Below are positions 2,739-24,649 of a DNA stretch of 24,829 bases, in pieces. The position numbers were made by a program, and so were the translations under genes. The notes under the pieces were generated by a model. It searched no databases and had not been told where the DNA came from. It saw only the letters and a list, made by a program, of their open reading frames with translations. Source of the DNA: Acanthamoeba castellanii str. Neff (lineage: Eukaryota; Discosea; Longamoebia; Acanthamoebidae). Every line of letters begins with the position of its first letter. Position 1 is the first letter of the stretch. Location: the NCBI RefSeq assembly GCF_000313135.1, contig NW_004457586.1, positions 890,889 to 915,717 on the forward strand, given 5' to 3'.

Positions 2739-4756
2739 CGGGCGAGCACGTACCAGCCTTGACGATCTTGAGCTCATCCTTGGCATGCCGGATGGCACTC
2801 TCGATGACCTTATCCGTACCCTTCATCGACTCCACGACGTAAGGGATACAGCCTCGCGAGATCTGAATCTGGCGGCTCACACTGTTGTCGCCAGCGCGAA
2901 GGTTGTCCGTTAGGAATGCTTTGGGGTTAGGAAACGCTGTGGGTTGGGTTGGGTTGGGTTGGGTTGACGTACTAAGCGTTGGGAGTGACGCAGAGGATGG
3001 GACACGACGGCCTGTACTTGGACACGAGCCTGGCGGTGTTACCAGTCTCAGTGAGACAGATGATGGCGGAGGCGGCGATATCCCACGACGACTTGACCGA
3101 GGACGAGGCAATGGTGTCGGGAACGGAGATCGGGGGAGCGATGACCAACTCACGAATCTTTCTGTAGAGAGCCCTATAGTCGATGTCGGACTCGGCCTGA
3201 TAGCAGATCTGGGCCATCATCTCAACAGCCTCCACGGGGTACTTGCCTGTAAGAGGAAGAGTGTGTGAGCAAGGTATGAATACGTCCACAGACTAAGCTG
3301 GCATGAGACGCATCGTACCTGCAGCAGTCTCACCCGACAACATGACGCAATCGGAACCGTCGAAGATGGCGTTGGCAACGTCGGTGGCCTCGGCACGAGT
3401 GGGACGCGGGTTCTGGATCATCGACTCGAGCATCTGCGTAGCGGTGATGACGGGCTTGCCTGCAATTCATTGAGGGAAGGGTTTGTCAGACGGGCACAGT
3501 GAGACAGTGGATACAACCACACAACGCGGGCAATGGGAGCTTACCAACGGAGTTGCACTTGGTGATCATCATCTTCTGAGCGGTGGCGACCTTCTTGATG
3601 GGGATCTGGACACCCAAATCACCGCGGGCAACCATGACACCGTCCGACTCCTCGACGATCTCATCAAAGTTGTCAAGACCCTCCTGGCTCTCGATCTTGG
3701 AGATAATGAGGATCTTGGCCTCCTTGATGCCGGGGAGAGCCCTGATGTCCCTCACGTCCTCGGCCTTACGGATGAACGAAGCGGCGATGAAGTCCACCTC
3801 CTGCTGGACGCCGAACTCGATGTCCTTGATGTCCTTCTCGGTCACGGCGGGCAAATCGACGATCACGCCGGGCAAGTTGACGTTCTTGTTCTCACCCATG
3901 GTACCTACAATAAAGCAGGGCACGGTCAGTGGCCACAAAAAATAAAGTAATATCAAAAAAATAGAAATCAACGCAGCCGTCCTACGCACCAGAGTTCTCA
4001 GCCGTAGATTCGATCCAGCCGTTGTCCAACACCTGGAGCACCACGAAGGCGAGCAGACCGTCGCCGACGAGGATACGGTCACCGGGCGAAACGTGCTGGG
4101 CGTGGAAAGCGAGGATTGATGATCAGCGAAGATTCGAGATGGAGCGCGATTAAGAAGTAAGGGTGGTGGTACCTTGGCGATGTTGAGCCACGAGAGGGCA
4201 CCAAACTTGTCGTCACCGAGGAAGCCCTCCTCAGGGACCCACGTGTAGGAGTCACCCACGTTAAACTTGACCTGATGAGAGTGCAAAAGAGCATTAAAGG
4301 AATGTTTGCACAATCGAGACGATGTGAATCGGTATGAGCGGATGGACTCAGATTGTGAAGACGAGAGCCGGCGTGGGTTACCTCCTTCCTGCCGTCCCTG
4401 TACTTGCCGGTCCTGATCTCGGGTCCCTTGGTGTCGAGCATGATGGCACAAGTGTGGCCAGTGGCCTTGGACGCGGCGCGCACGTTCTGGATGACGCTGG
4501 CGTGGTACTCGTAGCTGCCGTGCGAGAAGTTGAGCCTGGCGACGCTCATGCCGTTCTTGAGCAGCTCGGAGAGGATCTCCACGTTGTTGGTGGCCGGACC
4601 GACGGTGCAGATGATCTGCGAACGCACGTTCACAGGGTTGAAGGGCACCTCCTCCTTCTGCTGCAGGGAGTGCTTGAGCGAGCGCTTGATGCTCTGACCC
4701 GGGGCCATGGTCTTGTACTGGGCCTTGGCCGAGTGGGGAAGGGGGGCGTTCAACAT
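2551..4756 (-). CDS. Pyruvate kinase
   Basis: This is the last glycolytic enzyme, converting phosphoenolpyruvate and ADP to pyruvate and ATP in the cytosol. Eight exons join in phase: 4756-4382, 4271-4173, 4095-3990, 3904-3545, 3459-3319, 3246-2973, 2881-2754 and 2636-2551. They give 522 residues, a normal full length. Visible family motifs are [45 protein letters not shown] (catalytic Lys), [13 protein letters not shown] (metal-binding Glu/Asp region), TQMLESM, the substrate-loop region [14 protein letters not shown] and CVMLSGETA. The C-terminal allosteric domain ends RQVPE. The start at 4756 sits one base after an acceptor (CTGCAG), so the 5'UTR is very likely spliced; an additional upstream coding exon cannot be excluded. 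An N-terminal extension of about 35 residues precedes the catalytic barrel. I see no clear mitochondrial targeting peptide. The intron at 2972-2882 contains a GGGTT repeat and that at 2753-2637 a GA repeat. Confidence 0.97.
2708..2734. repeat. GA dinucleotide repeat in pyruvate kinase intron
   Basis: About 13 GA units lie in the last intron of pyruvate kinase. On the coding strand this reads as a CT-rich tract. Confidence 0.9.
2941..2965. repeat. GGGTT pentamer repeat in pyruvate kinase intron
   Basis: Five perfect GGGTT units lie inside the intron between exons 6 and 7 (AACCC on the coding strand). The unit is telomere-like, but it is short and intronic. Confidence 0.9.
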
Positions 4757-5378
4757 TCTGCAGACAAAAATCACATCAACCACGTCAGCACGCTTCCACT
4801 TGCCTACAACGATCTAGTGCAACCCTTGAGGGTCTTGCGATCATTCGTGTGCAAAATCTCGCGCTTTGGTGTTGATCGCGTGTAGCGCGAGCAAAATGCT
4901 CTGATGAAAGATGGCAGCGAGAAGGGGAAGACGAAGTGGGAGAGCAGAGTTTGGTGAGGATCAGGACCTGATGAAGTGTGGGTGGATCGATCGCTGCTAG
5001 TACGTCGGTTGGAAACGAAGGAAAAAAGATGGCCTCTAGCCCTTTGCGCGGACACCCCCAAAGTCCGAGGGCGCGTAAGAGTTTGTCACTTAACCCACCC
5101 CCACCATGTTGGCCGCCACCATTGGCTCGGGCGCGGACTTCTGGTGGCATCGCTGCCGCACAGGCCAACTTGTTCATCAACCGCCGGCGGGCCAAGAGCT
5201 CGACAAGTGATGACGGCTGTCAAGCGAAATTGTGGCACCATTACAATAGTGCACCCTCCCAGATACCAGGGGATCACACACCGATGCACGTATGTTTGTT
5301 TTGTCAGTGCTGTTTATTGTGTTGCATCGCCTCAGCGGGCACTCGTGTGCGTGTGACATTCACAGGCCAGCACAGCTC
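4757..5378. other. Intergenic: pyruvate kinase 5' region and 3' end of giant gene
   Basis: This stretch lies between the pyruvate kinase start and the stop of the giant gene upstream. Next to the ATG is a likely 5'UTR intron of 46 bases, 4803-4758, with a GC donor (AG then GCAAGT), a CTGAC branch-like element and a TCTGCAG acceptor. Further up, open frames such as that at 4785-5195 lack family resemblance and do not join in phase, so I read the area as 5'UTR plus promoter. The distal end holds the polyadenylation signal of the giant gene. Confidence 0.6.
5313..5318 (-). terminator. Polyadenylation signal AATAAA of the giant gene
   Basis: AATAAA on the minus strand, about 60 bases downstream of the stop codon at 5381-5379. 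It is the only canonical signal close behind that stop. Confidence 0.55.
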
Positions 5379-6141
5379 TTAGTCCCGGCCCTGGAAGAGC
5401 GAAGGCGGAGACGACGATGTGGCCGAGGAGCCCGACGACGACTCCGATGACGGCGCGGCGGGGATGGTCATGGCGGTGCCACCGGCTCGTCGCTTGCGCT
5501 CGCGCTCCTTCTGCTTCGTCTGCTCCTCCTGGAGGTCGCGTAGCTGCCACTTGAGCTCGTTGTAGAGCACGAGCGAGTACTGCTTGCGGAAGTGGAACTT
5601 GCGCTTGTAGAGCACCACGCCCACGATGCCCAGCACCGGGCCGACCCACGTCGGCGCGACCACCTCCTCCTCTTCCTCCTCCATCTCCTCCTCTTCGTTC
5701 TTGACCTTGGCCTCCCTATCCTCCGCCCGCTTCTGCGCTCCGTTGCCGGCGGCCGTCATCGAACCGCCGCCGCCGCCGGGGGTCATAGTGGCCTCTCGGG
5801 ATTTGGAGCCGATCACGATCTCGTTGGCGCCGCCCTGGAACACTCTGCCTATGTTGTTGGCGCCGTCGGTCCGTAGCGTCGCGGCGTGCCCGGCGAGAAG
5901 GCTGTCGACATCATTGGGCTCCTGTGTCGGTGGTGGTCGGTCAGATTGTATGTACAACATACTATAAATAATATGAATAATAGAAAGTACGTTTTGGCGG
6001 GTCGCTGGCGTTCGGCGGCTACGGCCTTCTGCAGCTCCTCGCGGATCTTTCGAGGCACGAGGCAGGGCGAGTGGTCCTTGTCCACCACCTGCACATACGA
6101 CGCCCACCAGCGAAGACATTGGTGAGACAGGACGGCGCACA

Positions 6142-6172
<31 letters not shown>

Positions 6173-7898
6173 CTCGGCGATGTGGGAGAAGATGGAAGCG
6201 ATGAGGGCCGTGTCCTCCGGGCACTCCCGCTCGGCCACGGCTTCGATGAGCGCGTCCTTCACCGAACCGATGGGCACCTCCATGTTGTCCTCGAACATCA
6301 TCTGAATGAAGCCGCCCAGCTTGCCCAGCACGAAGCGCAGCGCCAACTCTATTTCGCGCAGGTTCAAAGAGTCAAGGTGAGCTCGTGCATGCCGTGTGTG
6401 TCGTGTCGCGTGTCCCACGTACCGTCGTTGGTGGTTTCTTCGAGGAAAACGTCCATGAAGTAGTACTCCGAGTAGATGTGCGGGATCTGCGCCTTGAGCA
6501 GCAGGTACTGGATGACCGCGATCGTGTCATCGAAGCCGGCCACAAGTTTGACCCTGCCAGACAAAAGCGTCGTGTGCGTGTAAGCAGCGCCTCCTGCGTG
6601 CGTGTGCGGTGGTGCGTGTGCGGTGGTGCGTACTTTCCGCGATGGTGCTGATCGGCTTCTGCGACAACATCGTCGAACACCTCCTGGAGCAACTGCACAC
6701 CGCGGATGGTCAGCAACGCTTCGCATGACATGCGGTTGGGGAGATGAGGTCGATGCGTACGCGGGCCTTGAGGTAGGGCGAGGGCAAGCGGGGCAGCTGC
6801 TTGAGGGCCTCGATCTGCGGCGCGTAGGGCTGCGACACTCCCTTCAGCCGCCACTCCTCCGGGGCGCCCAGGTCCTGTCCACCGAGCACCACATCGTGAG
6901 CACAGCGTCACGACACACGCAACACGCAACACGCAACACGCAACACGCACGGAAGGTGTACCTCGAGGGTGAGGTGCTGGAAGGAGGCCATCTTCTTGGA
7001 GACGAAGTTGTTCTTGTGGGTGTGGTTGGCCTTGATGCGCTCGAACAGAATGTCGTGGAGCAGCGGGAAAATCACCTCACCTGCCACCGCTTCCTGCGAC
7101 CGAGCACCATCCCACAAATCAGAAAATTATCTACTAATAATAATAGATCTATTAAAAATAAATAAATAAACAAATAAATAAGCACAGAGGAAATTATAAG
7201 GCCGTGCCTTCATTTCGAAGAAAGACAGGTCGTCGGCGAGGTTGACGAGGAAGTCGAGGAGGAACTTGATGAAGAGCTTCACGTCGCTCACGGCTGCGGA
7301 GAGGGCCGAGTTCGAGTGTCGGCTCGTGGAGTAGCGACGCGCGAACGCCTGCCTATAGTAGTGCAGCATATCTGCATCGGGCAGCTCGATTAGACACGCC
7401 ACACGCCACACGCCACACGCCACACGCCACACGCCACACGCCACACGCCACACGCCACACGCCACACGCCACACGCCACACGCCACACGCCACACGCCAC
7501 ACGCCACACGCCACACGCCACACGCCACACGCCACACGCCACACGCCACACGCCACACGCCACACGCCACACGCCACACGCCACACGCCACACGCCACAC
7601 GCCACACGCCACACATATGACACGCGCACGTACCAACGAAAGGCCCGCGTTCATCGGCGAGCATTCGGTGGAAGTCCTCCGCGCTGCACTGCCAGCCCTG
7701 TGGTCGCCTGCGCAGTAGTGGTTAGCTATTAGTGGGCGTGGGCGCGTGCGGTGGAGCGTGCGGCGTGTACTTGTCGAGGTCCTCCCGGGAAAGGAGGCTG
7801 GTGCGCCGCTTGATCCGCGCAGTGTCCACGAGATCGGAATCGTCGGCGTCCGACTCGGAGAGATCGAGCTTCACCTGTGTGTGTGCGTGTGCGTGTGT

Positions 7899-7943
<45 letters not shown>

Positions 7944-10900
7944 CGCGAAGCCAAAACGTCATAAATTTGCGTGCGTGCGTGTTGTGTTTCGAAGGCATCG
8001 CGTGCGTACGTCTTGCAGGCCCGCGCTTGGGTCCTCGTCGTCCATGTTGATGCTGAACGACAGGCCGTTGTCCTCGTGGTCGCTGTCGTCCGTGTCGTCC
8101 TCTAATTCAGACACGAAACGACACACAACGCGCGACACACGGCACGGCACGGCACGACACACGATGGCGAGATGAGCCAAGGCTTCGAGCGACAAATAAA
8201 ATACGTTGCAAGAAGGCTGCGCACCCTCGCGGTAGACGGGCCAAAGGAGGTAGTTCTTGACGGTATCGAGGTCGGGTAGCAACAGGTCGCCCACGATCGG
8301 TTGCCACTCGTCACTATCATATGTCGCAGAGAGTGAGCCCAAGAAGCGAAAGCGAACGCGAAAACGAGAAAGAGAGGTGTGGTCACCCGTCGCCTTCGCC
8401 AAAGGTCTCTTCCGGGATGTTGATGCACTCCTCGCTTTGCAGCCGTACCTCGCTGCTGAGCGCCTCCAGGATCACCTCGATTCTCGGTCGCTGCACCACA
8501 CACACACCACACACCACACACCACACACCACACACCACATCACACCACACACACACACACACACGGTAAGCAATCCGGCAATGGTTGAGGGGACGAGGGG
8601 CGCACAAACCTTGCTCGGCTCGGGGTCGGCGCAGCTGTCGATAAGTTGGCGTATGTGATAGGGGCACACCTCGGGCAGCTCGATCGAATGCCAGTCCTCC
8701 ATCGCTGCGTTCGAATTGTAGAACACCTTCACCAGCGTTTTCTGCAGCCCACAATAAAATGTGAATAAAAAAAATGAAAAATAAGAAGCAAAAGTACAAG
8801 AATAAATAGAATATAAAAGAAATAAGCATTTGTAAGGTGGCGATGGGCGTCACAGCCAGGGTACGCACCCGGATCGTCTTGCCAAAGCCGTAGACGTCCG
8901 ACGCCTTCGTGGGCGCTCCGCCCTTGGTCACCTCGGGAGCCTTGTAGCGTTGCGCGGAGGCCTTGGTGGCGGCGGACGGCGACGAAACCAGCGACGCCGC
9001 GCTGCCGAAGGACATGCCCACCAGCAGCGCCTTCTCCTTCCTCCGGCCTCGCAGCTCCTGCACCACGACGTTACCTAAATCGCGATAATGACACATTGAC
9101 GCATTCGCACCGTGGTCAGCCCGATCGACACGCGACACAACAGGCGCACGACACGACACGACACGACACGCGCGGCACGACGAAACTATGATAGTTGTAC
9201 CGGGCTTGACGTTCTTGTGGATGAAGCCCAGGACGTGAAGGTAGCGGATGGCCTTGGCGACGTCCTTGAGCACCTGGAGGCCTCGCAGGAAGCCCACCTC
9301 CTCGGCCGACCACAGCACCTTCTCGAGCGTTCGCGGGTAGAACGGCCGCACGATCTGTGGTGCGTTGCGTTGCGTTGCACACTGGGGTGAGCAATCGAGT
9401 CGAGCTGTACCGAGGATTGAGGGTGGGCCGAAGGCCGGTGGTGAGCGCTGTGGGCTGTTAACGTACCTGGAAGGGATTGTCGTGACGTGGCAGGTGGTCC
9501 TCGGGAGCGTGGGCGCCCAGGACCTTTACGATTTGCTTGCACCCGCTCGTGAGCACCATAGCCGCCAGCTCGCTGGTGTGGCCCAACAGCGCATGAGCCA
9601 TAAATAATGTATTTTTATATATTAGTTCTAACGCATAATGCATAATAATTGAAAGGACCGAGTACCTTCTGAATTCATGGGCCGACCAGCCGGCGTAGTA
9701 CTTGACGGCCACGGCCTTGCCGCGCCAGTTGCCCACCCGGATGTTGCCCACCGCCGGATTCGCGCATTCCAGCTTCTCCAGGGGCCTGCACGCACGCACG
9801 CGCACGCCAGCGCATCACAGCGACAAGAGAAAGGGTGCGTGTGTAAGAAAGGAGATGTGTGCGGTGCCGAGCGAGGTGTGGAGTTGTCACATACCTGTGC
9901 AGGTAGGCCCGGCCCTTCTTGATGTCCTGGTAGAGCGGCGCCAACATCAGAGCCAGCACCTCCGCTGCATCCGGTCGCCTGGATGTGCGCATGTGCGCGT
10001 GCGGTCAGTGGTCCGTTGCTGGAACCACACGCCCACACGCCCACACACGCCCACACGCCCACACACCCAACGAACAGAGACACGCACTTGATTGTGGCCG
10101 CGATGTAGCGATGGACTCGCACGATGTCCCACCGGTGGCAAATGGGGCAGCAGAACAGCTTCACCGTCTCGTCGACCGTCTTGGCAAAGTCGTGCTCGTC
10201 GCCGCCGCCGTTCGCCCGTATAAGCGTCTCCTTCTCCGCGGCGGCGCCGTCGATCAACGCGTCGTCGTCCTTCTCCTTCTCCTTGCCCTTGTCGCGCACG
10301 CGTTCCCGGGCCTCGCGGTCGCGCTCCCGCTCACGCTCCATCTGCCGCACGCGCTCGCCGTAAGCGCCCACCTTGTACAGGTCGCCAACGGCATCGCTGC
10401 GGCCGCTGACCGGCGTCGTGGGCGCCGATGATGACGTGGTGGTGGTGGTGGTCGGCGTTGAACCGGGCGAAGTGGGCGACGCCATTGGCGACATCTGCAC
10501 GGGCGACGACGACCACGACGCGCCGCGCCAGGCCGTCGTTGGGCCGGCGGCCTCCTTGCGTTCGCGTTCGCGCTCGCGTCGCTCCCTGGCGCGCTGGGCC
10601 ACGCGCCACTCACACACGTCGTCTTCGAGGAACTGCTCGAGCCGCGAGAGGCTGCGGCAGCACACGGCGCAGATCGGGTGGCCGCACAGCTGCAGCCGGA
10701 TGGCCTTGCCGCTCAGGCACAACACGCACACCAGCTCGCCCTCGTTGCTGACGCCCGACGCCAACGCCGCCTCGCGCGGGCTCGTGGGCGAGGCGCGTCG
10801 GGTGGGCGATGACGACTTGCGGGGCGTGGGGGTCGCCTTGGCCGGCGTCGGCGTCGGCGTGGCGGCCACGTCGGCTGCTTCATGTTGCCCATGCTCTGGC

Positions 10901-13900
10901 TGCGGTCCCGCATCTGCTCCGACCGGCGCTTCTTGTGCTCCCCCTCCATCGCGTGCTGCAGGTTCGACGTCGACGCAAAGAACTGTTGCACCGCTTGCGT
11001 CAGCTAGAGCGGTTGACCGCACACGCGCCACCGCACGCACGCACAACCGCACACGCGCGCAAAGAAAGAAGCGAACCATCGGCGGGGACGTGGAGGCAGA
11101 GGGCAAGGTCGTGGCGGGGTGATAGGGCCGGTAGCAGAGCACGGAGAAGAGGGTCTCGACTTCGTCGGCGCCGATGTCGCGCTTGAGGTCGCGCAGGTTG
11201 ACCAGGTGGCCGTAGACGGGGAACATGGACGACAGCTTCATCCGCCGCGCGGCTACCACCCGGTGGTCGGCGGTGGCGCCGCTCTCGTCGCCCGACCCGG
11301 CCACGCCGCCGACGTCGTGGTGCTCTTTCCTGTCCACTTCCCCCGCCGCCGCCGACGAAGACGCGGCGAGTTGCTTCTTGCGCTCGCGCTCCAGCTTCTC
11401 GCGGCTCTCACGCCGCCGTCGGCTGCCGCGCTGCTGCAGTTGCTTGCGCAGCTTGACGCCGCCGATGTCGCCGCTGATGTCAAAATCGTCGCTGTCGCCA
11501 CCACCGCCGGTGGCGTCGCTCTCACGCGCGTGGGCGACCTTGTCGTGGGCGAAGCGGTCGAGGTAGGCCGTGAGGTGGGTCAGCGAGACCGCGCACTCGG
11601 TCGACTCCAGTATGTCCGCGCACCACAGCGCGAACTCCTCGTAGCGGAACGACGAGTTGCTCTTCATCCGTTGATGCGACTTCTTCTTCCGCGCATTGAC
11701 GGCACTACGCGACCGCACACAACACACAACACACGACCGCACACACACAACACGCGGTTTGAGACGAACGTGTGTCGTGCGGAAATTGGGGTGGGGGGGC
11801 GACGCACGCCGGGCTCTCGTCGGGCTCGTAGGAGAGGGTGAGGAACTGGTCCCGCACCTGCTGGTTGCAGCCGTCGAGCAGGGTGCCCAGGACGTCGGAC
11901 ACGGCGGTGGGCTCCACCGCCCACGCCACGCAGAGCTCCCCGAGGTAGTGCACGAAGCTCTCCGCGACGACGTACTTCCAGAGCGAGGCCATCAACAGGC
12001 GATTGCTCGACTCCTCGAGGTGGACCGCACTACGCAACGCCAAGTCGGTCAGTAAGCAAGCGTGTGTCGTGTCGTGTCGTGCCGTGCGTCTAGTGTGTGT
12101 CGTGCCTGTTAAAGTAGTGCTGGCTCTTGATTAATCGGACCAACTTCTGGACGGCGTGGTACGCCTCTCCCTTGTAGGCGTCGACCATCGCAGTGTTGAG
12201 CAGCTGTTCTCGACTGCGTTCGTACATATCATTAGATCTAGACCGCAAAATTGCAGGCGAGGGGGGGAGAGAGGCCGCAGTACTTGGACGCTGGAACGAC
12301 GGCGGTTGCCGGGTCGGCCTTCTCCCGTCGCGAGTATTCATACATGGTCGACAGCAATATGGCCCACCCCAGCTGCAGCGTAAGGCGACACCACCTCTTC
12401 GTGTGAGATTCGTTCTCCCGTCTCATTGGCCGTGTCGTGTCGTGTCGTTGGTCGTGTCGTTGGTCGCGTCGTTGGTCGTGTCGTGTCGTGTCGTGTCGTG
12501 TCGTGTCGTGTCGTGTCGTGTCGTGTCGTGTCGTGTCGTGTCGTGTCGTGTCGTGTCGTGTCGTGTGTATTTGTCATAGGTTAAAGTGTGCGTACCACGG
12601 ACTGACGCGGAGGAAGGAGGAACTCCTTGAACCGACCTCGCCAGAACTGGGACAGCAGATTATTCTCGGGCAGCTCCTTGCCGTTGTTCTCCACAAACAC
12701 CAGCGCATCTGCGACACGACACACGACACAGCACACCACGACACACGACACACGACACACGAGACGTAGAATAAATATTAGCCAAGAGGTCCGGGACGTA
12801 GACATGTCGGTGGCATACCCGAGGTGCTTCGGGCAAAGTAGAGCGGGTGGGGCAACGAGTTGGAAATGCGCTTGGGGTCGTAATTGATGTTGTAGTGCAC
12901 CAACACGAAGCCCTCCAGGAAATACACGGCCGACCTGTCGTCGTCGCGATTGATCGGGTGAGTGCTACGTGCGTGTGTGCGGTGGTGCGTGTGTGCGTGT
13001 GCGGTGTCGGAGTGGGGAGCATGGAACCTGTTGGTATCGCCTTTGTACATGAACTGAGCACCGTTCTGCTCGAGGCAGAAGAAGAGGATGGCCAGCGGAT
13101 GCGTGAGCTCCTTCCCCGGCCATCGCTCCGGCCCCGCCGCACTACACGCCCCCCAAGGAAAAGAATAGAAAGGAAAAGAAAGAAAAAGAAAAGGTCAGCG
13201 CCGATCGCCTGCCATGGTGCGCGCTTGCGTGACGAGAGGCGTACCTCTCTCGAATGTCGCTTATCTTGTACAGATCGGCCGCTTGCTCTCGCGTGTGTCG
13301 TCCGATCACGGAGATCACCGTCACCGGCCTGCGAACGACGACGCGTGTCACGTGTGAGAAGCCACCAAAGCCCACCCGACTGTGGGCTCATCAACCAAGG
13401 GAAAAGAAAGAAAGAAAGAAAGAAAGCAAGCAAGCAAGAAAGACAATCTGGGGCAGAACCCAACGCACTTGGCAAAATTGGGGTTGTCGCGGAAGTGGGC
13501 TATGAACCGGCGCACGTTGAGCGCCAGGTACTCCTCCTCGGAAGTCGACAGCAGCTGGAAGTTGACCGTCGCCTCCACCCGCTTCTTGCAAATCGGGCAC
13601 CTGATCGGTTTCCCCGGCTCCACTGTTACCGACGACACACGACACACACGACACACGACACGCGGCACACGAGACACACCGCACACACGACACGTGCACG
13701 AGACACACCGCACACGTGACACACACGCACGCGACGGGGTACCTAGCATTGAGCTTGACGAGCTTTTCGATGCAGTATTGGCAGAAGGGGTGGCCGCAGA
13801 ACATGAGACGCCCGCGGCACTGGTTGGTCTGGCAGATGAAGCAGACCTCGCTGTTGAGCACCCGCGGGGAGACCGACTCGACCAACAGCAGGAGGCGACT

Positions 13901-16900
13901 GAAGAAGTCCAACGGCTGGTACTGCAGCTTGTTGTACGCCGCGTGCTCCTTGATGAACAGCTCGCACAGATGCGACTCGAGCTCCGCCTCATCGGCGTAT
14001 TCCTGGCGTGTCGTGTGTGTCGTGTGTGTCGTGTGTGTCGTGTCGGTTCACAGGAATGAAGCTGCAGATGGGGCGAGTGTGTGGTACGGTACCTGGAAGG
14101 GTCCGTCCCACACGTTCAGCTGGGAGGCCATCTTTCTATAGAACATCTTGCCGAACTGCCGCCTGGCCTTGGCCCACATCACCCTGTAGTGGCCGCGCAT
14201 GTGAGACCTGTTACGTGCGTGCGTGCGTGCGTGCCACGAACCTGGGGTAGAAAGGGAGATTGGACGCTTCGGAAACCCAGATGTCGGTCTGACTTCGGTG
14301 GGAGATGTGACCGTTCCTGACCTGGGTGCAGTAGATCGGCATTCCGTCGCCGTCCACGCACTCCGGTCGCTTGGCCGAACAAGGACCCACCTGCGCACAT
14401 AATTTCGCATATTATTATTATATATTATGAAATATTAATAAGCATCATTATTATGAAATATCGTCGTCAGATCTGAAAAATAGAAATGAATAAATACATT
14501 GATATTGAGATTACCTCGTGGAAGCGCTGCCAGATGAAGCCGACAAGGCTGCGGTAGAGCTTGTGCTCCTCGAATTCGACCTGCTTGGTCTTGTGATGAT
14601 CGAGGATCGATTGCGTGGCGGGCGAGGCCGGCGGGGTCAGATGCCCGATCGCCTGGACATCCACGCGAATCCCATCAGAAAAAGATGCGCAAGCGGGGGG
14701 TTGTTGTGACGTGGCACCTCGCTGCGCACTTTGTCGACTCCGCGGTAGGGCGACGACGCGGTGCTCGGCGAAATAAGGGCCGTGTACAGATTGCGTAGCA
14801 GCGACCCCGTGGCGTCTGGTATGCCGGCCACATACCACCGACGCCGCGTTAGTGTATCGTGTCGTGTGCGTGTGCGTGTCGTGTGCGTGTCGTGTCGTGT
14901 GAGCCTTTCGGGCCAGCTGCGTACCTTTGCTGTCGAACGGATCGGGCGATTTGCTGGTCGCGCGGGTGCGTAGCAGGCCAGAGAGACTCAACGACTGGCA
15001 GCACGCAAATAAATAAAAATATAAATTGAAAATGAAACGCAATGCAATAACGAAAAACATAATCAGGAAAAAACGAAAGTTGCGAGCTTGCCCCGGGGGC
15101 GAGTACCGGCATGGGCTCCTCGCCCTCGTGTCCTTCCTCGTAGGCGACGCTGGCGAGCATGCCATCGACCACCTTGTTCATCTCCGGCAGGAATTGCGAG
15201 AGCAGCGCTTCGTTGTTGGCCGCCACCGTCATCATCGCCAGCAGTTTGATCGAGGCTGCGCCGCACATGAGAGAGAGAGAGTCAGCAACGGGGCGATGAT
15301 CAGTGATGACTGGGTGACAGCCACTTGGTCTCTGTCGGGGTACCTTCGCAGGCCTGCTTGTAGTTGTCCCACCGGCCCTCGGACGGCTTGTCGTCGTAAA
15401 TCGAATGGAAAAAGTCGACAATAACCGACTCGAGTTTGTACTGTGGGTTGGGGAGCAGAATGACCGTCGTCACCGTGAGCACGCGGCACACACGCGACAC
15501 TCAACGCACGCACGACATACGCAGCCCTCACGACATGCGCAACACGCTGGTGGAGTGGGGGGGAGTACCTGAGGGCCGATCTTGAGCGAGACTTCGTAGG
15601 GCGTGACCTTGAGCTCCTGGTGGAAGTTGTACACGATCCACCGAAACTTGTCGCCCCACTGCGCTCGATTCAGATTGCTAACCGACACAACACGCACACA
15701 CGACACACGACACACACGACACACACCCGGTGAGTCTTCCGACATGCGGCGGAGACAAGGCGCAGAGGCAGCGAGTGGATAGAACCTGTTGTGCTGCTGT
15801 CGGATCTGCTCCTGTTCCTGCAGCAGCAGCTCCAGGTGCAGCTTGAGCACGTTGATCTGCTGCAGGAACCGGAAGTAGTTCTTCTCGGTGCCCTTGTCCG
15901 GAATGTACACGCAGACGACCCGCAGGAAGGCCTGCCCCAGGAGCTTGTTCTTGTCGTGCGTCTCCAAATAGAGGCGCGTCGTTTCCTGCGAATAAGGAAT
16001 ATTATTGGTATTATTGGTTATTATTATTTAGAAGAGGAGGAAGAACCTCGACCGACATTTCGAGGTCGTTGATGGTGCACTTGTTGCACACGATGAGGAG
16101 CGAGGGCGGGAACGACGACGCAACGCCGGTCGTCGATTGCTGAGCGAACTCGAGCATGTGCTTGAACGGACTGCAATGAACGATCGCGTCAGCAGGAACT
16201 CTCGCCTGACACACACGGCACACACGTGAAGGTACCTTCTTCGGGCAAAATTGGCTTCATCGACGTAAATGATGACGTTGGAGATGGTGTAACATAGTCG
16301 GGGCAGCTTGTTGACGTTGCTCAGTCTCTGCTTGATGTCCCGAATCGACAGCTTCTTAATGTCCTTGGCCGTCACCGCAGGCGTGTTGGGTGACGCGTCG
16401 ATACCTGCAGGTACCAGGCACACACCGAACCACAGCCCAATTCGCCAACACCATCGCAATCCATTCAAAATGAAATCAGTTTCGAAATACATTTCATTGG
16501 TTGCAAGTGAGCCGGTTGCGAGGGGTTACCTTCGACATCGAGCACGAGGATGCGCTTGGACGATACCTGCTCCTTGAGGGTGGTTGTCGACAGAAACATG
16601 ATGTCGTCGTACATGTTGACCTGAAAAAAACAAAAAACAAAAAAACAGGCACTTATGATAAGATCACTCCTACCCTTGCCATGGCCAGGTATGCAACGTA
16701 CGTTGTTGGTCGTCGGCTGGAAGACGCCCTTCTGGGAAACGCGCGGCCGTTGGGGCATGTGGGGGTACATGTGACAGATCAGCGTCGACTTGCCTACGCA
16801 CGCGTACAACCCAACAACAGTTTAGGCTGGCGTTTAACACGGCACACACACACACACACGACACACACAACACGACACACGACACAGGCCATACCTGAGT

Positions 16901-17275
16901 GGGTCGGACCCACGAACGACACGACACGCGAGGTTTGCTTGGGGTAGTTGCGTAGCACTTCCGAGAGCAGGTCCTGCGTTAGCCGTGGTTAGTGTGGCCG
17001 CCCTTTCTCGGTCCTGGGCGTAAGGGTCCCCGATGGTGCGCGTACCTCGTTGATGTCGAATCGGTTGGCTTCGGTCACCTGCAGCAGCTCGGTCTCCAGT
17101 TCGCGCACGCTGGGCACGTCGGTGGTGGCGGAGAGGTGCTCGCACAGGACCTGCAGATTGTTGCGGTAGTCCTCGGTGACCTCCAGCAGATATTCGAGCT
17201 CCTCCTTGCGCCCCTTGAACATCGGGTAGTTTGTCTGGTAGATGTGTCTGGTACAAATCAACAGAATTAGCACTT

Positions 17276-17307
<32 letters not shown>

Positions 17308-19106
17308 GACACACACACGGCACAGACCTGCGCAGCTTGTTGGCTAGCTTGTGTAGCCGGGTCATCTTGGTGATGGCGATGGAGGTGTTAAGCGGAATCC
17401 CGTTGGCGAGGAACTCGATCTCGTCGTACTTGCGCTGCAGCTTCTCCATCGAGAAGTCCTGAATCTGGTGGATCTCCTTGACGATGATCTGTGCGTACTT
17501 GTCGTCGCCCAGGATCGCGGCCAGGTCTTCGAGGGGCACGCTCTTTAGAGTCTCATAGTTGCATATGTGACACTCCCTGGACACGACACGCAACACGCAA
17601 CACGCAACACGCAACACGACCAACGACACGGCACACGACACGAGTGTAAGAGCAGATGATGACCACATGAGGAGGAGGAAGAAGAATGATAAGAATGCAC
17701 AAGTACTTGAGCTGTTCGGTGATCTGCGCGGATATGGCTGGGCTCTTGAGCTTGGGGATCATGCGGAGGAAAGCCTCGACGTCCATGTCCAGCGGCGACT
17801 CCTCGCTCCGGTAGATGGTGATCAGCTCTCGCTGCATAGGAAGGCGGTTTAGTACTCTCTGGCTAGCAGCGGCCACACTACTGCGGGCGGGGTCTAACCT
17901 GGAGGCAGCTCAGGAATCTGTTGACCGGCCAGTTCTTCAGGAGGTGGGCCTTGGTGCTCGGGCTGTCCAGCTGCAAATCGGAAAAGTCCCTGATCGTGTG
18001 TACCTGTGATCGTCGAATATATTAGCATCATTATTTATATCATAATCGATGTTTTCTATGTGTATGATATATAAATAAATAAATAAATAATACAGTGGAA
18101 TATGTGGTGTGGACCTTGAGCTTTTGGTTGAGCACGTTGAGAGCCCAGGTGATGTCCTCGTTCTTGAGCCGGCAGTGGTGCGAGCAGGAGAGCACGCGAT
18201 GCAGTGCGTCGTCCAGCGTCTCCTCCTTCATCGGGTGAGCCGACGGTGGTGATATCGAGCTGGGCGAGAAGTTGAGCTGGCGGCTGGCCGACGCCAATGA
18301 ACCCAAATCTAATCGCATCACACGACACACAGCGACACGCAACGTCAGATATGAGGTTAGCACTAGAACGCGTTGAGGTCTAAGAATGTGCAGTTGTGAG
18401 CGCGCACGTGAAACACTCTCGCCTGGATGCGGCGAGGCCGGCCTCTTTGGAAAGGACTCTCGAAGCTTGTACTGAACCAATCAATAAATCTCACATTAGC
18501 ATTCCCTCTGCGCGTGGCTAACAACCATCAACGATCACCATGTGACGTACCTCCATGTCTGGATCGTCAAGCACGTCTTCCATGGATGTGAACTGCGGTG
18601 TCACCCATGGAGAGGCGAGTGTAAACATAAATGATGGTATGGCGCAACGAGCCCACGACGAGCGATAGAGGAATAGAGCCGAGTGAGTGAGTGTGAGTGA
18701 TCGGTGGTGGTACCCGGGCGGGGCCGAGCCTCTGTCCGCGGCGTGTCGTGGGCGAGGAAGAAATGGCGGACGGCAGCGTGGCGAAAGTGCTGCCGAAGGA
18801 CCTGGGTGAGCGGCTGTTGCTTGTAGCCGAAGCCACGCTTGCATTGTGAGTGACGTATTTGCCAATTGCGTGTCGCGGTGTGCGGTGCCGTGTCGCACGC
18901 GTGTGCGGCCAGGTATGATACAAAATGAAAAACAAGGCGGGCAATTATGTGCTCACGCTGTAAAAATGAAAACAGGCAACGCAGAAAGGGTAGATGCGGT
19001 TGTACCTGCGTCGCTCATCCTTCTGGCGCTGCATGGCGTCGTGGCTGGGGCTGCGCTTCAGCTCGCGCTGTCCGTGCCGGGTACTGTGCGGCCCAGGAAT
19101 GTCCAT
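5379..19106 (-). CDS. Giant GTPase-RING-RING-pseudokinase-VPS9 protein
   Basis: Fifty-three exons join in phase without a stop: 19106-19006, 18837-18714, 18592-18551, 18471-18417, 18308-18115, 18003-17899, 17831-17707, 17576-17328, 17247-17046, 16973-16895, 16793-16702, 16620-16530, 16404-16236, 16170-16047, 15985-15786, 15677-15569, 15440-15344, 15255-15107, 14994-14925, 14815-14718, 14652-14515, 14390-14242, 14207-14093, 14002-13743, 13600-13469, 13328-13245, 13141-13028, 12934-12819, 12708-12596, 12372-12284, 12213-12106, 12029-11808, 11704-11077, 11003-10088, 9978-9895, 9785-9666, 9572-9467, 9354-9201, 9074-8869, 8741-8610, 8490-8387, 8313-8225, 8101-8010, 7874-7771, 7707-7634, 7371-7208, 7093-6962, 6874-6761, 6692-6634, 6553-6423, 6348-6173, 6088-5991, 5901-5379. 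The product is about 2,773 residues if one base is missing in exon 34, or 2,743 if that exon hides an 89-base intron. Domains by residue: Ser/Arg-rich N-terminus 1-75; helical region with a CHIC motif near 250; GTPase about 400-650; RING 1013-1050; helical region 1060-1450; split RING 1674-1870; pseudokinase 1915-2188; acidic linker about 2220-2250; VPS9 2364-2565; acidic stretch, hydrophobic segment and basic coiled tail 2665-2773. Least certain: the start of exon 30, the exon 48/49 junction, and whether RNA shows one transcript or several. Function inferred: a scaffold linking ubiquitylation to Rab-controlled membrane traffic. Confidence 0.72.
5609..5651 (-). other. Short hydrophobic segment near C-terminus of giant protein
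   Basis: Residues about 2684-2698 read TWVGPVLGIVGVVLY, directly after a Glu run and before a basic Lys/Arg-rich stretch. Fifteen residues is short for a membrane helix, so this may be a membrane-associated or amphipathic element rather than a true transmembrane anchor. Confidence 0.35.
6173..7093 (-). other. VPS9 domain (Rab5-family GEF) of giant protein, exons 47-51
   Basis: VPS9 domains activate Rab5-type GTPases on early endosomes and phagosomes. The order of elements fits the family: EVIFPLLHDILFERIKAN, then a Lys-rich segment, HLTLEDLGAP, a helix ending LPSPYLKA, then AGFDDTIAVIQYLLLKAQIP with HIYSEYYFMDVF, and a closing helix ELALRFVLGKLGGFIQMM. The Asp in GFDD and the hydrophobic strand after it match the conserved core where GEF-active members carry Asp and Tyr/Thr. 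The call is by remembered pattern, not by a profile search. Residues are about 2364-2565. Confidence 0.65.
6914..6949. repeat. ACACGCA heptamer repeat, intronic
   Basis: About five ACACGCA units lie in the intron between exons 47 and 48 of the giant gene. They are a one-base relative of the large ACACGCC array at 7394-7614. Confidence 0.85.
7394..7614. repeat. ACACGCC heptamer tandem array, about 31 copies
   Basis: A near-perfect minisatellite of 7-bp units fills most of the intron between exons 45 and 46 (7633-7372). Because seven is not a multiple of three and no unit contains a stop, the minus strand is open in all three frames and each frame spells the same heptapeptide VWRVACG. It is intronic by splice phase and is not called as coding. 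Confidence 0.95.
7875..7941. repeat. GT microsatellite, intronic
   Basis: GT/GTGTGC repeats lie directly next to the acceptor of exon 44 of the giant gene. On the coding strand the tract is CA-rich. Confidence 0.9.
8387..9785 (-). other. Pseudokinase domain of giant protein, exons 36-41
   Basis: A protein-kinase fold is visible at about residues 1915-2188. The glycine-rich strand and VAVK lysine are present (IRVGNWRGKAVAVKYY). The helix before the catalytic loop reads IRYLHVLGFIHKNVKPGNVVV, where the HRD aspartate is Asn (residue about 2038). The DFG motif is replaced by MSFG (Ser at about 2063). RYKAPEV supplies the APE motif and SDVYGFG the helix-F aspartate. Loss of both catalytic Asp residues indicates a pseudokinase, likely a binding or allosteric module. 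The overall pattern is like the tyrosine-kinase-like (TKL) group common in amoebae, which is inference. Confidence 0.8.
8496..8563. repeat. ACCACAC-type heptamer repeat, intronic
   Basis: A run of CACACC/ACCACAC units occupies the intron between exons 40 and 41 of the giant gene, next to the acceptor of exon 41. Confidence 0.85.
10138..10728 (-). other. Second RING finger of giant protein, split by a low-complexity insert
   Basis: The first six zinc ligands read CVLC, ten residues, CGHPICAVC (residues about 1674-1696). The last pair, CCPICHRW, comes about 170 residues later (about 1866-1870). The insert between them is Arg/Glu-rich, then Ser/Thr/Pro-rich, then Lys/Glu/Asp-rich, and lies in the same open exon. 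A typical RING has about 10-20 residues at that point, so the fold would need this segment to loop out. Confidence 0.65.
12430..12567. repeat. TCGTG pentamer tandem array
   Basis: About 25 units of TCGTG, with a few GTTGG-containing variants at the left end, lie in the intron between exons 29 and 30 of the giant gene. The array makes spurious long open frames of VVSCR type on the plus strand. Confidence 0.92.
12714..12763. repeat. CACGACA-type simple repeat, intronic
   Basis: Degenerate ACACGAC units fill the intron between exons 28 and 29 of the giant gene. Confidence 0.8.
13402..13442. repeat. GAAA/GCAA tetramer repeat, intronic
   Basis: AAAG units followed by AAGC units lie in the intron between exons 25 and 26. 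The coding strand reads as a CTTT/CTTG tract. Confidence 0.85.
13588..13843 (-). other. First RING finger of giant protein, exons 24-25
   Basis: Residues 1013-1050 give a textbook C3HC4 RING: CFIC, eleven residues, CGHPFCQYC, ten residues, CPIC. It is split by an intron right before the last zinc pair. Acceptor choice is decided by phase: using the CAG at 13603-13601 restores both the frame and the spacing, while a more upstream CAG does not. RING fingers of this class bind E2 enzymes and promote ubiquitin transfer. Confidence 0.88.
13630..13735. repeat. CACGACA/CACACGA-type simple repeat, intronic
   Basis: Degenerate ACACGAC and CACACGA units cover the intron between exons 24 and 25, which separates the two halves of the first RING finger. 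Confidence 0.8.
15786..16973 (-). other. GB1/RHD3-like GTPase domain of giant protein, exons 10-15
   Basis: The P-loop GPTHSGKST (residues 421-429) is split by an intron after Ser-Gly. A PTT element about 25 residues later may be switch I. The strand ILVLDVEG (480-487) gives the DxxG motif in the DVEG form typical of RHD3/atlastin-like and guanylate-binding GTPases. A second hydrophobic strand, ISNVIIYVDEANF, follows, then SLLIVCNKCTIND at 566-578, where NKC stands in the position of the usual N/TKxD but lacks the Asp. Guanine specificity is therefore uncertain. A long Gln/Glu helix rich in coiled-coil character ends the region. Confidence 0.62.
17281..17307. repeat. CA microsatellite, intronic
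   Basis: Thirteen or so CA units lie in the intron between exons 8 and 9 of the giant gene. Confidence 0.92.
17582..17617. repeat. ACACGCA heptamer repeat, second copy
   Basis: Four to five ACACGCA units lie in the intron between exons 7 and 8 of the giant gene. The unit is the same as at 6914-6949, more than 10 kb away in the same gene. Confidence 0.85.
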
Positions 19107-19505: not shown

Positions 19506-19577
19506 GGGGCGTTGGTGAAAGTGGAATCATGTAGGACTCCAGATCCTGAGGTGCGGGTTCAATTCCTGCACGCCCCA
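19506..19577 (+). tRNA. tRNA-Trp (anticodon CCA)
   Basis: A 72-base cloverleaf folds without gaps. The acceptor stem GGGGCGT pairs perfectly with ACGCCCC. The D arm GTGA/TCAT has one G-T pair. The anticodon stem TAGGA/TCCTG encloses the loop CTCCAGA with anticodon CCA at 19539-19541. The variable loop is four bases, and the T arm GCGGG/CCTGC encloses TTCAATT. The A box TGGTGAAAGTGG fits the TRGYNNANNNGG consensus and the B box GGTTCAATTCC is intact. The loop CTCCAGA is the same as in animal tRNA-Trp as I recall it. There is no intron, CCA is not encoded, and a TTTT polymerase III terminator follows at 19590-19593. Confidence 0.9.
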
Positions 19578-19864
19578 CAACACATAACGTTTTCCTCCAC
19601 ACCAGAGACGAAAAAGGCTCGGTCTATCATTGGCCTGGTTGCAGCCTACAACTGTCCAGCCGGCTGTAACTCGGCCAACGAAGTGTGATCGAATGTACCC
19701 TGTCCTGTCGCCGACACAGCATTTTTGGTGGCCACACTACTTTTCTTTTTCTTTTTTCTTTCTCGCGCAGCCCGTGGGTCGGGCAGCCAACCAGAACTTT
19801 GAAGACGGACTACACTATGAACCCAACTGTTTTACTCTACGCTTCTCCACGCCACACAACAGCA
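19578..19864. other. Intergenic and 5' region of the MRH gene
   Basis: After the tRNA terminator this stretch contains a strong pyrimidine tract ending in CTCGCGCAG near 19770, which looks like a 3' splice site. A GTACCC donor-like element lies about 70 bases earlier, so the MRH gene may have a 5'UTR intron. An in-frame upstream ATG at 19817 could extend that protein by 16 residues. Confidence 0.45.
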
Positions 19865-21179: not shown

Positions 21180-24100
21180 TTAGAAGCGGGTGTTGGTCTT
21201 CTGGATGCGCTTGATGAGGTTCATGGTCTCCAGCTCGTCCTGGTCGTCCATCATCGAGAGCGAGGACGTGAGCGAAAGCGAGAGCGAACCGGCGGGTGCC
21301 GACGTCGCACCGCCAAAGATGGAGCCGGTCACCGCCGATGACGACGCTGGCTTCTTGGTCGTCTTCTTCATCGCCGCTGCCGCCGACTTCCTGCTGTTGC
21401 TGTTGAACTTGGCGTTCGTCTTCTTGGCCATGTCCTTGCCGTTCTCCTTATCGCTGCCATCGTCGTCATCTTCATCATCGTCGTCGTCGTCATCGTCATC
21501 CTCCTCCTGCTCCTCCTTGTCGTACATGTCCCACACCTTCATCTCGCTCTTCTTTGTCTGCGCCAGGGCCATCTGTCGTCGCGCCTCGTCTTCTCCGCCA
21601 CCATGGCGACTTCCCTCATCATCGTCGTCTTCGTCATCGTCATCCTCCTCGCCCAGCTCCGACGGGCAGAAGCGTCGCATGATGGCCTTGAGCTCCTCGT
21701 CCTCCCTCTTATTCTGCCAGCTGGTATGGTACGATGTCGCCTTCGCCTTCGAACCGGCCGCTTCCTCCTCGTCGTCGTCCTCCTCTTCGTCTTCGTCTTC
21801 GTCTTCTTCATTCGCTTCATCGTCGTCGTCATCATCATTCTCCTCCTCCTGTGCCTCGCTTCGTCCTTCAAGCTCAGCGATGAGGGCCTCTTCGTCGTCG
21901 AGATCTTCTTCTTCGCCGCCGCCGCGCAGCTCCTCCGATACCTTCGCCTTCGCGGGGTCGACCTGCCCAACGGCCACTGCTGCCATCTTCTTCACCTCTG
22001 CGGCCTTGTGCTCCGTCTTCTCGACCGCTTCGTCGTCATTGTCGGAATGCGCGTCGTCCTTTTGGTCGCTGCTGCTCGCGGCACCACCGAAGATGGCACC
22101 CAGGTCGTCATCCTCACCGACCGCCTGCGCGTTTGCAAAAAAGTGGTCAGTTTTAAGTGGTCAGTTGCTCGAACTGCGCTAGATGTCCAGGAAGCCAGGC
22201 GCGGGCGGGGGAAAAAGGTACCAAGGCGGGTGTGGTGACGGGGTGGTCGAGGGGCATGGCGAGGGACATGGACGGATCGAGCGTGGGCTCGTAGGTGAGC
22301 GCGAGGCCAATGGCCGGGTCGAATTGCTGCGCCTGCTGGCCAAGCGCCGGCTTCGAGGCCTCCTCGACGCTCTTGGGCTGCTCGTCATCCACATCGTCGC
22401 CGCGGCTCATGCTCCACAGGTCCTGGGTGGTCTCCATGGGCATCTCCAGGCTGGCGGCAGCCCAGTTGGCCGGCGTCTGCAGTAAATGGAGAAGAAGGTG
22501 AGAAGGATTGCACGAGCCTTCGAGGAAGACCTTGCGCGCGCCGAGCAATCGTGTCAGATAAGTACCGACTGGATGGGCTCCTCTTCTACGACCGCCTTCT
22601 CTTTCTCCTTTTCCTCGGCGGCTTGATCATCACTCTCGGAGGAACGACGCCATGGGCCTCCTTGGCCTCGCCGATCTCCACCTCCATCTCTTCCGCCTCC
22701 TGCTTGGCTTCCTTCGGCGAACCGGACTCGGCAGAAGGAGGGCACACGTAGAGCCCACCTCCAGCACGGGGCGGCTTGGTGTCGGCAGACAACCGGGGCA
22801 CAGCCCTGCAGGAGGGAGAGAGATCAGTCAAGATGATGATCTCAACACTCGCGTGTGTGTGACGTGCCAGTTCTGGACGTACATCGGAGTGTTGCGCAGG
22901 ATGGCAGAGCGTCGGATGAGGCGATTGGCCAGGGCCTGCACATCCATCTCGGGCGCTTCGATCCTCTCGAAGTTGAGCCGTCCCTCTGTTGTTTAAAAAA
23001 AGATTAGAGCAATTAGAGACCTCAGCGCGTGCGGGCATTTGGGCGAGTGGGTGCCGTACGGCGCAGGATCTTTTGGGTGACGCGCGACGCCTTCTCGCGG
23101 GCCGACTCGACCTCCTTGGCCACCTTCTTCTTCTGTCGCTTGCTGGGCGGACCCTCCTTCTTATTGGCCCTCTTGCCCTTCTTGCCTGCCTTCTTCGACT
23201 GCTCGTCCGTGCCCTCTTCTCCGTCACTGTCACTGGAACGGCGGCGCTGTTTTGTGATAGGGTCAAGTGAGTGTGCGGTGGTGCAGGCGGGCCGCCGAAA
23301 GGTGCGTACCTTCTTGCTGGCAGAGGTGGTGGACTCGTAGTCAGCATCCTGAGCGCTCGACTTCTTCTTATTCTTCTTCTGCGCCTCCTCTTCGTCATCG
23401 CTGATGTTGCCGTTGAGGAAGTTGAGCAGCTCGTCCTCCTCGTCTTCTTCCCCGTCGTCGAGCTTCCGCTCGCGAATGCGCTCCCCGATCGGACGTCGGT
23501 CTTCTTCCTCTTCGTCTTCATCTTCGCTTATCTCTCGCTCCTTCTTCAACTTCTCCTTTTTGTCAAGCTGGTCGTCTTCATCTTCTGAGGACGAGTCCCT
23601 CGTCTGCTGCACCTTGCCATGGTCCGACTTGACGACCTCCTTGCTTTCGTCTTCGTCGTCGACCACCCTCATCTTTGCCAGCTTAGCCCTTTCCTCCTCG
23701 TCTCTCTTTTTCTGTTCTGCCTCTCTCCTCTTCTTCTCCTGATGCTCCTTCGCCTCCTTCTTCTGCGCTTCGTTCCTCTTGGCCACGATCTCACTCTCCC
23801 TGGCAGCGACTACGTCCCTGTCCTCCTCCTTCTCGATAACAGGCTTCTTCTGCTTCACGGGCGATGCCACAACTTTCGCTGCCACCTCAGCCCCTGTGCC
23901 CATCCATCAGTTAATCGAAGATTTGGTTTTGAGATTTGTGTAGCACGATATGGTTTCGGATGATGGTACCTTTCTGGGCCGGTGGTTCGGCGGCGACAGC
24001 GGCATCTGTGGCGGGTTGGTCGCCGGCAGGCTCTTCGGAGGAGACGACCTCCTCGCAGAGATCAAAGTCGTCTACGTCGTCGAACGCGTCGCTCTCGCCG

Positions 24101-24513
24101 GCGGTGAAGGGGACGACGTCGTTGTGACCGAAGGCGTGCAGCTGTTTGGCCAGCGTCTGCAGCCCCGCCGCCAATCCGCCGCTCGTGGCTTCATCTGCCA
24201 GACCATGCTTCTCCTTCTGCTGCTTCGCCTCAACGATCTGGGGCTCTTCCTCTTCATCCATGACGTCGTAGTCATCTTGCGTGGCGTCTAATCGCTCGAA
24301 TGCGTTGTTCAGCTTAGCGCCCACCTTGGACACGACCTCATCCCCCTTCTTCTTTTCCGGCTCTGCTCGTGGCTTCACCTTGAGCTTCATCTTCATGTTC
24401 GGTCCCGCCGTGCTGCCCTCATCTGCCACAGTCGCGTTTACCTCATTCGCTTCACTCTTCTCCGATCGCCGACGTCGCGCGTAGCGCACGGAAGGGCTCC
24501 CCTTAGTCTCCAT
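21180..24513 (-). CDS. Acidic/lysine-rich nuclear-type protein, possibly Claspin/Mrc1-like
   Basis: Seven exons: 24513-23970, 23893-23310, 23246-23060, 22985-22883, 22805-22566, 22476-22222 and 22124-21180. They give about 952 residues if one base is missing in exon 5. The chain is mostly charged low complexity: Lys/Glu-rich helices, SDSD/SEDEDEEEE blocks and an Asp run of about ten near 21480. It contains many acidic, casein-kinase-like Ser sites and basic stretches that resemble nuclear signals. The only family-like segment spans exons 3-4: REKASRVTQKILRR followed by RLIRRSAILR. It resembles the conserved Claspin/Mrc1 stretch that joins a Ser/Gln-Arg-Leu helix to a basic helix. Claspin mediates the replication checkpoint. 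An E2F-type site about 100 bases upstream would fit S-phase expression. The identity is tentative: other acidic nuclear proteins remain possible. Confidence 0.6.
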
Positions 24514-24649
24514 TCTCTTCTTCAGTTGATGGATCAATGAGGTTGTTTGCGCGTGATTTGATGTGCCTTGACCAATCTACAACCCAACGGTCTGCCCCCA
24601 ACGGCGTTCTTTCGCGCCAAAATAAAATAAAATAATTATTGTTTTCCGT
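24514..24649. promoter_or_regulatory. Promoter region of the Claspin-like gene
   Basis: Only 136 bases separate the ADAL-type stop from the start of the acidic protein. The start is the first ATG at 24513; upstream in-frame reading has only TTG. The E2F-type motif TTTCGCGCCAAAA lies at 24610-24622, followed by an AAAAT repeat. Confidence 0.5.

Follow-up and report, generated by a model that had tools for sequence, protein, structure and literature searches.

The stretch of DNA analysed here (the window, 24,829 nucleotides) comes from Acanthamoeba castellanii str. Neff (NCBI RefSeq assembly GCF_000313135.1, contig NW_004457586.1, positions 890,889 to 915,717 of the forward strand). Consistent with this origin, a profilin encoded in the genome matches PDB chain 1f2k, PROFILIN II of A. 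castellanii, at 125/125 residues. Positions 19106 to 5379 of its minus strand are one gene coding for one long protein, in which a P-loop domain, a RING, a second RING-like motif, a pseudokinase and a VPS9-like domain follow one another in a single chain. The kinase part has lost its catalytic aspartates and the VPS9-like part its catalytic tyrosine, and the same domain order and the same losses recur in the only homolog found.

Gene model and homolog

The coding region starts with an ATG at 19106, and its stop codon ends at 5379; exactly these ends were returned by a dynamic-programming search with a free start, which used generic codon and splice-site scores and was not trained on the giant gene. 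The search scored 697 on the minus strand, against 118 for the plus strand of 5379..19106 and 3 to 7 in all of 20 first-order shuffles of this span. Model M2, the search result with exon ends then adjusted by eye, has 54 exons and 2713 residues, and its 53 introns measure 58-262 bases (median 103; 50 GT-AG, 3 GC-AG). Exons 1-4, 19, 20 and 34 and the joins 34/35 and 53/54 are provisional, being poorly or not at all covered by the homolog. Two introns, at about 12430-12560 and 7400-7610, consist by eye mostly of short tandem repeats of CACGA and GTGTGGC types.

When M2 was compared with 5.8 billion proteins (7,980 candidates scored), a single match was returned, P0001, of 2079 residues; the search depends on common five-residue words, so that distant relatives escape it. 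P0001 is read in a single frame without interruption, and its contig has at most 6411 bases; it is most likely a transcript, because a frame of this size on such a contig leaves no room for introns. Its alignment with M2 begins at the first methionine and reaches the C-terminal tail (1049/2021 aligned residues identical), with identity highest in the P-loop core (142/202), the first RING (29/44) and the VPS9 core (84/131); the first 118 residues show the lowest (9/37). The same protein search retrieved nothing but P0001 itself when run with the core of P0001, and no protein when run with an alignment of the N-terminal half.

Within the genome (38.4 Mb, 250 contigs), a search with P0001 (35 candidates, 23 scored) yielded 29 matches at E<=0.01, and 27 of them lie in the window on the minus strand and in order, covering query residues 44 to 2069 with a gap at 1185-1476; one of the 27, weak and overlapping, contains two stops. 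The other two sit on other contigs and match the kinase part only, and no second copy of the gene was found by this search. Two scans of viral contigs (43 and 144 pattern stretches) and one of genome contigs (23) yielded no viral or bacterial relative, and as each was based on two short peptide patterns they exclude little.

Since P0001 aligns end to end with M2 and bears out the exon joins along most of the gene, we consider the question of a single chain settled. The alternative of at least two separate genes lying head to tail, with the single chain as a modelling artefact, is extremely improbable. It can point to the tendency of a gene search to link whatever can be linked and to weak splice sites at a few joins (34/35, 53/54). 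Against it, P0001 holds the same regions in the same order in one uninterrupted frame, no two neighbouring M2 exons lie more than 262 bases apart, and the genome matches of P0001 follow one another through the window. We rejected it on the evidence of P0001 and of the short gaps between exons. The single minus-strand gene over 19106-5379 proposed in a first-pass annotation of this DNA is thus borne out by the exact ends, the scores and the end-to-end homolog, and its estimates, 53 exons and a length of about 2,770 residues, were close to the model reached here.

The features of the gene, all on the minus strand, are as follows.

5379..19106, minus: whole coding region of M2, 54 exons, 2713 residues; supported by the gene search, end-to-end P0001 and colinear exon matches
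16929..18234, minus: conserved N-terminal region, M2 119-400, without a known domain; P0001 is identical at 137/280 aligned residues
15869..16928, minus: P-loop NTPase core, M2 401-609; GPTHSGKST, LDVEG and CNKCT; 142/202 identical to P0001
13850..15868, minus: conserved region following the NTPase core, M2 610-984; 176/293 identical to P0001; includes exons 19 and 20, which have no counterpart in P0001; no known domain
13576..13849, minus: RING1, C3HC4, 8/8 ligands, M2 985-1028; intron 13742-13601 inside; PF13920 27.5 bits
10738..13575, minus: middle region, M2 1029-1614; conserved in stretches, with inserts of low complexity; exon 34 provisional, as is its join
10123..10737, minus: RING2-like region, M2 1615-1819; CVLC, CGHPICAVC, long insert, CPIC
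8437..9908, minus: pseudokinase, M2 1855-2116; beta-3 Lys kept, HRD replaced by HKN, DFG stretch without Asp
6083..7637, minus: VPS9-like domain and preceding region, M2 2252-2513, whose first part may, by analogy, be a helical bundle; aspartate finger FDDTIAV at 6534-6514; final helix stretch without Tyr
5382..6082, minus: C-terminal tail; low-complexity stretch and conserved VLYNELKW block; first join (53/54) provisional

Nucleotide-binding domain

The P-loop core is the part of M2 best conserved in P0001. Its motifs stand in the order P-loop (GPTHSGKST), DxxG (LDVEG) and then CNKCT in M2 or CNKST in P0001. Of the Ras-like motifs, G1 and G3 are thus present, while G4 (NKxD) reads NKCT or NKST, the Asp being replaced by Thr in both proteins. 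No Pfam family exceeded its cut-off for the excised domain of either protein. Below the cut-offs AAA_23 or AAA_22 came first, accompanied by AAA_29, DO-GTPase2, RsgA_GTPase, MMR_HSR1, ABC_tran, cobW and a few others, in a list from which the HMMER filters remove most matches above E 0.1; GBP, dynamin, Roc and Ras models were not in this list for either protein. A profile built from the two sequences and run against the PDB placed SRP receptor beta first (E 0.025), its P-loop and NK motifs standing in the matching order. Eight further matches (E 0.26-0.81) comprised two SRP receptor beta chains and, for the rest, mostly unrelated or other P-loop proteins.

We interpret the domain as a P-loop NTPase that is probably GTPase-like, and the nucleotide bound would then probably be GTP. 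That it is instead an ATPase or a structural nucleotide-binder is somewhat unlikely, and would be compatible with the function proposed below. The leading sub-threshold Pfam matches, AAA_23 and AAA_22, and the loss of the specificity Asp of NKxD in both proteins would fit such a domain; the DxxG motif after the P-loop, the motif order resembling that of SRP receptor beta and the occurrence of GTPase models in the same sub-threshold list speak for a GTPase. The assignment to GBP/RHD3, the family suggested for a profile check in the first-pass annotation, was dropped, as no such profile is in the Pfam list for the excised domain of M2 or P0001, which the filters clear of most matches above E 0.1. 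From its motifs, the giant protein may sense nucleotide state.

The RINGs

RING1 reads CFIC, C, CGHPFCQYC and CPIC and has eight of eight C3HC4 zinc ligands in both proteins. It passes the Pfam cut-off of 27 for PF13920 with 27.5 bits in M2 and 29.4 in P0001, the former score depending on the splice chosen: 13743/13600 gives 27.5 bits, another draft splice 23.4. In RING2 all eight zinc ligands are likewise present by eye in M2 and P0001, around an insert that is long in M2 and short in P0001. The intact ligands suggest that the giant protein may ubiquitylate.

The pseudokinase

The kinase is recognised by Pfam with 57.6 bits in M2 (cut-off 23.1). In P0001, PK_Tyr_Ser-Thr passes (26.1, cut-off 23.1) and Pkinase falls just under (30.0, cut-off 31.7). 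The beta-3 lysine is retained (AVK). With HKNVKPGN in M2 and HKNVNPGA in P0001, the catalytic loop of both lacks the HRD aspartate, and the DFG stretch of M2, KALLVGMSFGSAAS, has no Asp in any register; P0001 has no DFG. With both aspartates missing an active kinase was dropped from consideration, and by its residues this part is a pseudokinase, as had been called in the first-pass annotation. The NCBIfam and PADLOC models of defence kinases that match it in P0001 (MkoA 1.5e-12, mad6 3.5e-12 and, far short of its cut-off, MAD6 1.7e-10) probably reflect general kinase similarity.

The VPS9-like domain

Neither in M2 nor in P0001 does the Pfam VPS9 match extend beyond position 81 of the 104 in the profile. 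The aspartate finger (Asp313 of Rabex-5) is kept, as FDDTIAV in M2 and YDDTVAV in P0001. The final helix is poorly placed by automatic alignment; the catalytic tyrosine (Tyr354 of Rabex-5) is, independently of register, absent from the final helix stretch of both proteins. A proline of the VPS9 domain is replaced by Ala in both. Searches of the PDB returned two chance matches for the VPS9 region and none for a short piece of it.

We compared these positions with four other VPS9 genes of this genome (from six exon matches over the cut-off, two of which belong to one gene). The finger is DD in three of the four, aligned with the DD of the giant proteins, and EE in one. Pro stands in all four where both giant proteins have Ala, and a tyrosine is found in the final helix stretch of three, the fourth (L005) having one close to the end of its readable frame. 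One of these genes, L002 (G000:C114:195873-196097), shares the PPYEKA and KADIP layout of the giant gene, keeps a Tyr in its last helix stretch and may be its nearest cousin.

The activity of Rabex-5 is abolished by changing the finger Asp to Ala (PMC3919270), and in another VPS9 protein Asp-to-Ala and Tyr-to-Phe each reduce activity severely (PMC4379102). The latter source describes the Tyr as critical in the VPS9 domains tested and attributes importance also to Pro317 and Glu351 of Rabex-5. Because the Tyr and the helpful Pro are gone, though the finger is kept, activation of Rab5 by the giant protein is doubtful; binding of a Rab is plausible. In amoeba genomes, a protein with a VPS9 match should accordingly be examined for the Tyr before it is called a Rab5 activator.

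Possible function of the protein

The simplest reading is a ubiquitin ligase or scaffold with two docking domains, since the RINGs and the nucleotide site look intact whereas the kinase and VPS9 parts look disarmed. The protein of about 2,700 residues would be a ubiquitin-linked scaffold or a RING ubiquitin ligase (E3), with a shape set by its P-loop nucleotide-binding domain. The pseudokinase and VPS9-like domain would offer docking surfaces rather than act as catalysts, and the latter may recruit the protein to Rab5-class GTPases on endosomal membranes. We give such a nucleotide-regulated, two-RING ligase or scaffold about an even chance of being right.

Several observations weigh against it. 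The VPS9 match stays just under its cut-off of 27 in the final M2 (26.2 bits, E 1e-5; 27.3 bits in a scan confined to the C-terminal part of a draft model) and clearly under it in P0001 (23.0 bits, E 1e-4). VPS9 is not among the precomputed domains of P0001, and no VPS9 chain is among the PDB matches of P0001 that were listed (60 of 111 chains). With the aspartate finger kept, some guanine nucleotide exchange factor (GEF) activity is possible. No Pfam RING profile reaches its cut-off for RING2, which is therefore a motif call, and the residues after the last ligand of RING1, a position often important for activity in RINGs, differ between M2 (KK) and P0001 (AQ). Conservation is known from two sequences, P0001 being the single homolog found, and structure predictions for a piece of P0001 alone and for a piece of it with exons from the window were unusable (mean predicted local distance difference test scores, pLDDT, of 36.1 and 34.2).

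The first-pass annotation had seen an active all-in-one regulator, in which a switching GTPase and ubiquitylating RINGs accompany a VPS9 domain that activates a GTPase of the Rab5 class. Its single chain, which unites a nucleotide-binding part, RINGs, a pseudokinase and VPS9, stands, with kinase and RING1 confirmed by Pfam, VPS9 at about the threshold and RING2 recognised by motif only; the search for a GTPase profile, the failure of which had been named beforehand as counting against the claim, found no family over its cut-off, hence the observation is confirmed in part. Activation of Rab5 is weakened by the losses described above, and an active regulator appears unlikely. The control of phagosomes or pathogen vacuoles that the first-pass annotation suggested is speculative. 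The VPS9 profile does match both proteins, and both keep a finger that is essential in Rabex-5 (PMC3919270); the Tyr is nevertheless missing, the Pro has become Ala and the Pfam match breaks off before the end of the profile in both, and Tyr-to-Phe, like Asp-to-Ala, severely lowered activity in the VPS9 protein tested (PMC4379102). A two-RING ligase acting on Rab5-class GTPases, which the degenerate VPS9 domain would bind without activating while the RINGs ubiquitylate them, would be a brake rather than an activator. Such a brake agrees with the presence of all RING ligands beside a VPS9-like domain possessing the finger and not the Tyr, and with a report that Rab5 can be monoubiquitinated and is thereby downregulated (PMC5624781). 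It is distinctly unlikely all the same, as both Rab binding and E3 activity are predictions and the RINGs end about 560 and about 1,350 residues before the VPS9 core. Its most specific form, in which a nucleotide-gated two-RING ligase would grip Rab5-class GTPases through a finger-only VPS9 domain and mark them with ubiquitin, the borrowed domain having its role reversed and the kinase serving as a further docking part, is a long shot that the sequence allows. Should the VPS9-like part of the ligase or scaffold that we favour still bind Rab5 and not activate it, evolution would here have reused an activator domain for targeting.

Neighbouring features

A tRNA-Trp gene (window 19506-19578, plus strand) lies just upstream of the start of the giant gene. 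On the minus strand, the window further holds a pyruvate kinase gene in pieces at about 3480-4813 (PF00224 111 and 177 bits on two pieces) and a mitochondrial carrier gene, likewise in pieces and cut by the window start, at 3-1437 (PF00153 48.8 and 29.3 bits). Very acidic, lysine-rich low-complexity protein frames occupy about 21180-24576 (minus strand), and the two of them that were scanned had no Pfam match.

Comparison with known systems

Each part of the giant protein is of a known kind, and the architecture as a whole appears undescribed: no description was found among the listed titles and starts of abstracts of the open-licence PMC literature searched, in agreement with the first-pass annotation, which knew no precedent for the combination. 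Roco proteins such as LRRK2 likewise unite a nucleotide-binding domain and a kinase in one chain, but in the giant protein the kinase is catalytically stripped and RINGs and a VPS9-like domain are added. Membership was dropped in the absence of a Roc-COR model from the Pfam lists at E<=1 (M2) or E<=5 (P0001). In RNF112, or neurolastin, the RING comes first. The giant protein differs in having its RINGs after the P-loop domain, in its further domains and in the lack of a dynamin or GBP model in its Pfam lists. Common to both is a RING together with a P-loop nucleotide-binding domain, which in RNF112 is described as a dynamin-superfamily GTPase (PMC12012479).

VPS9 proteins of single taxa have gained P-loop NTPase, RasGAP, CAP-Gly, PH, zinc finger and kelch domains (PMC6032885, section 2.7). 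The giant protein shares additions of the P-loop NTPase and zinc finger kind with them; that section names neither a kinase nor a RING, and the words 'RING' and 'Acanthamoeba' do not occur in the main text of the article.

The combination of ubiquitin transfer and Rab5 control in one chain is, to our knowledge, known from few proteins, of which Rabex-5 (RABGEF1) is the standard case. Rabex-5, several times shorter, resembles the giant protein in joining a VPS9-type domain to a ubiquitin-linked zinc finger. The giant protein has RINGs instead and no A20-type zinc finger model in the Pfam lists of M2 and P0001, for which reason membership was dropped, and it lacks the VPS9 Tyr. Beyond these ubiquitin-linked and Rab5-type parts, the giant protein also carries a dead kinase and a nucleotide-binding domain.

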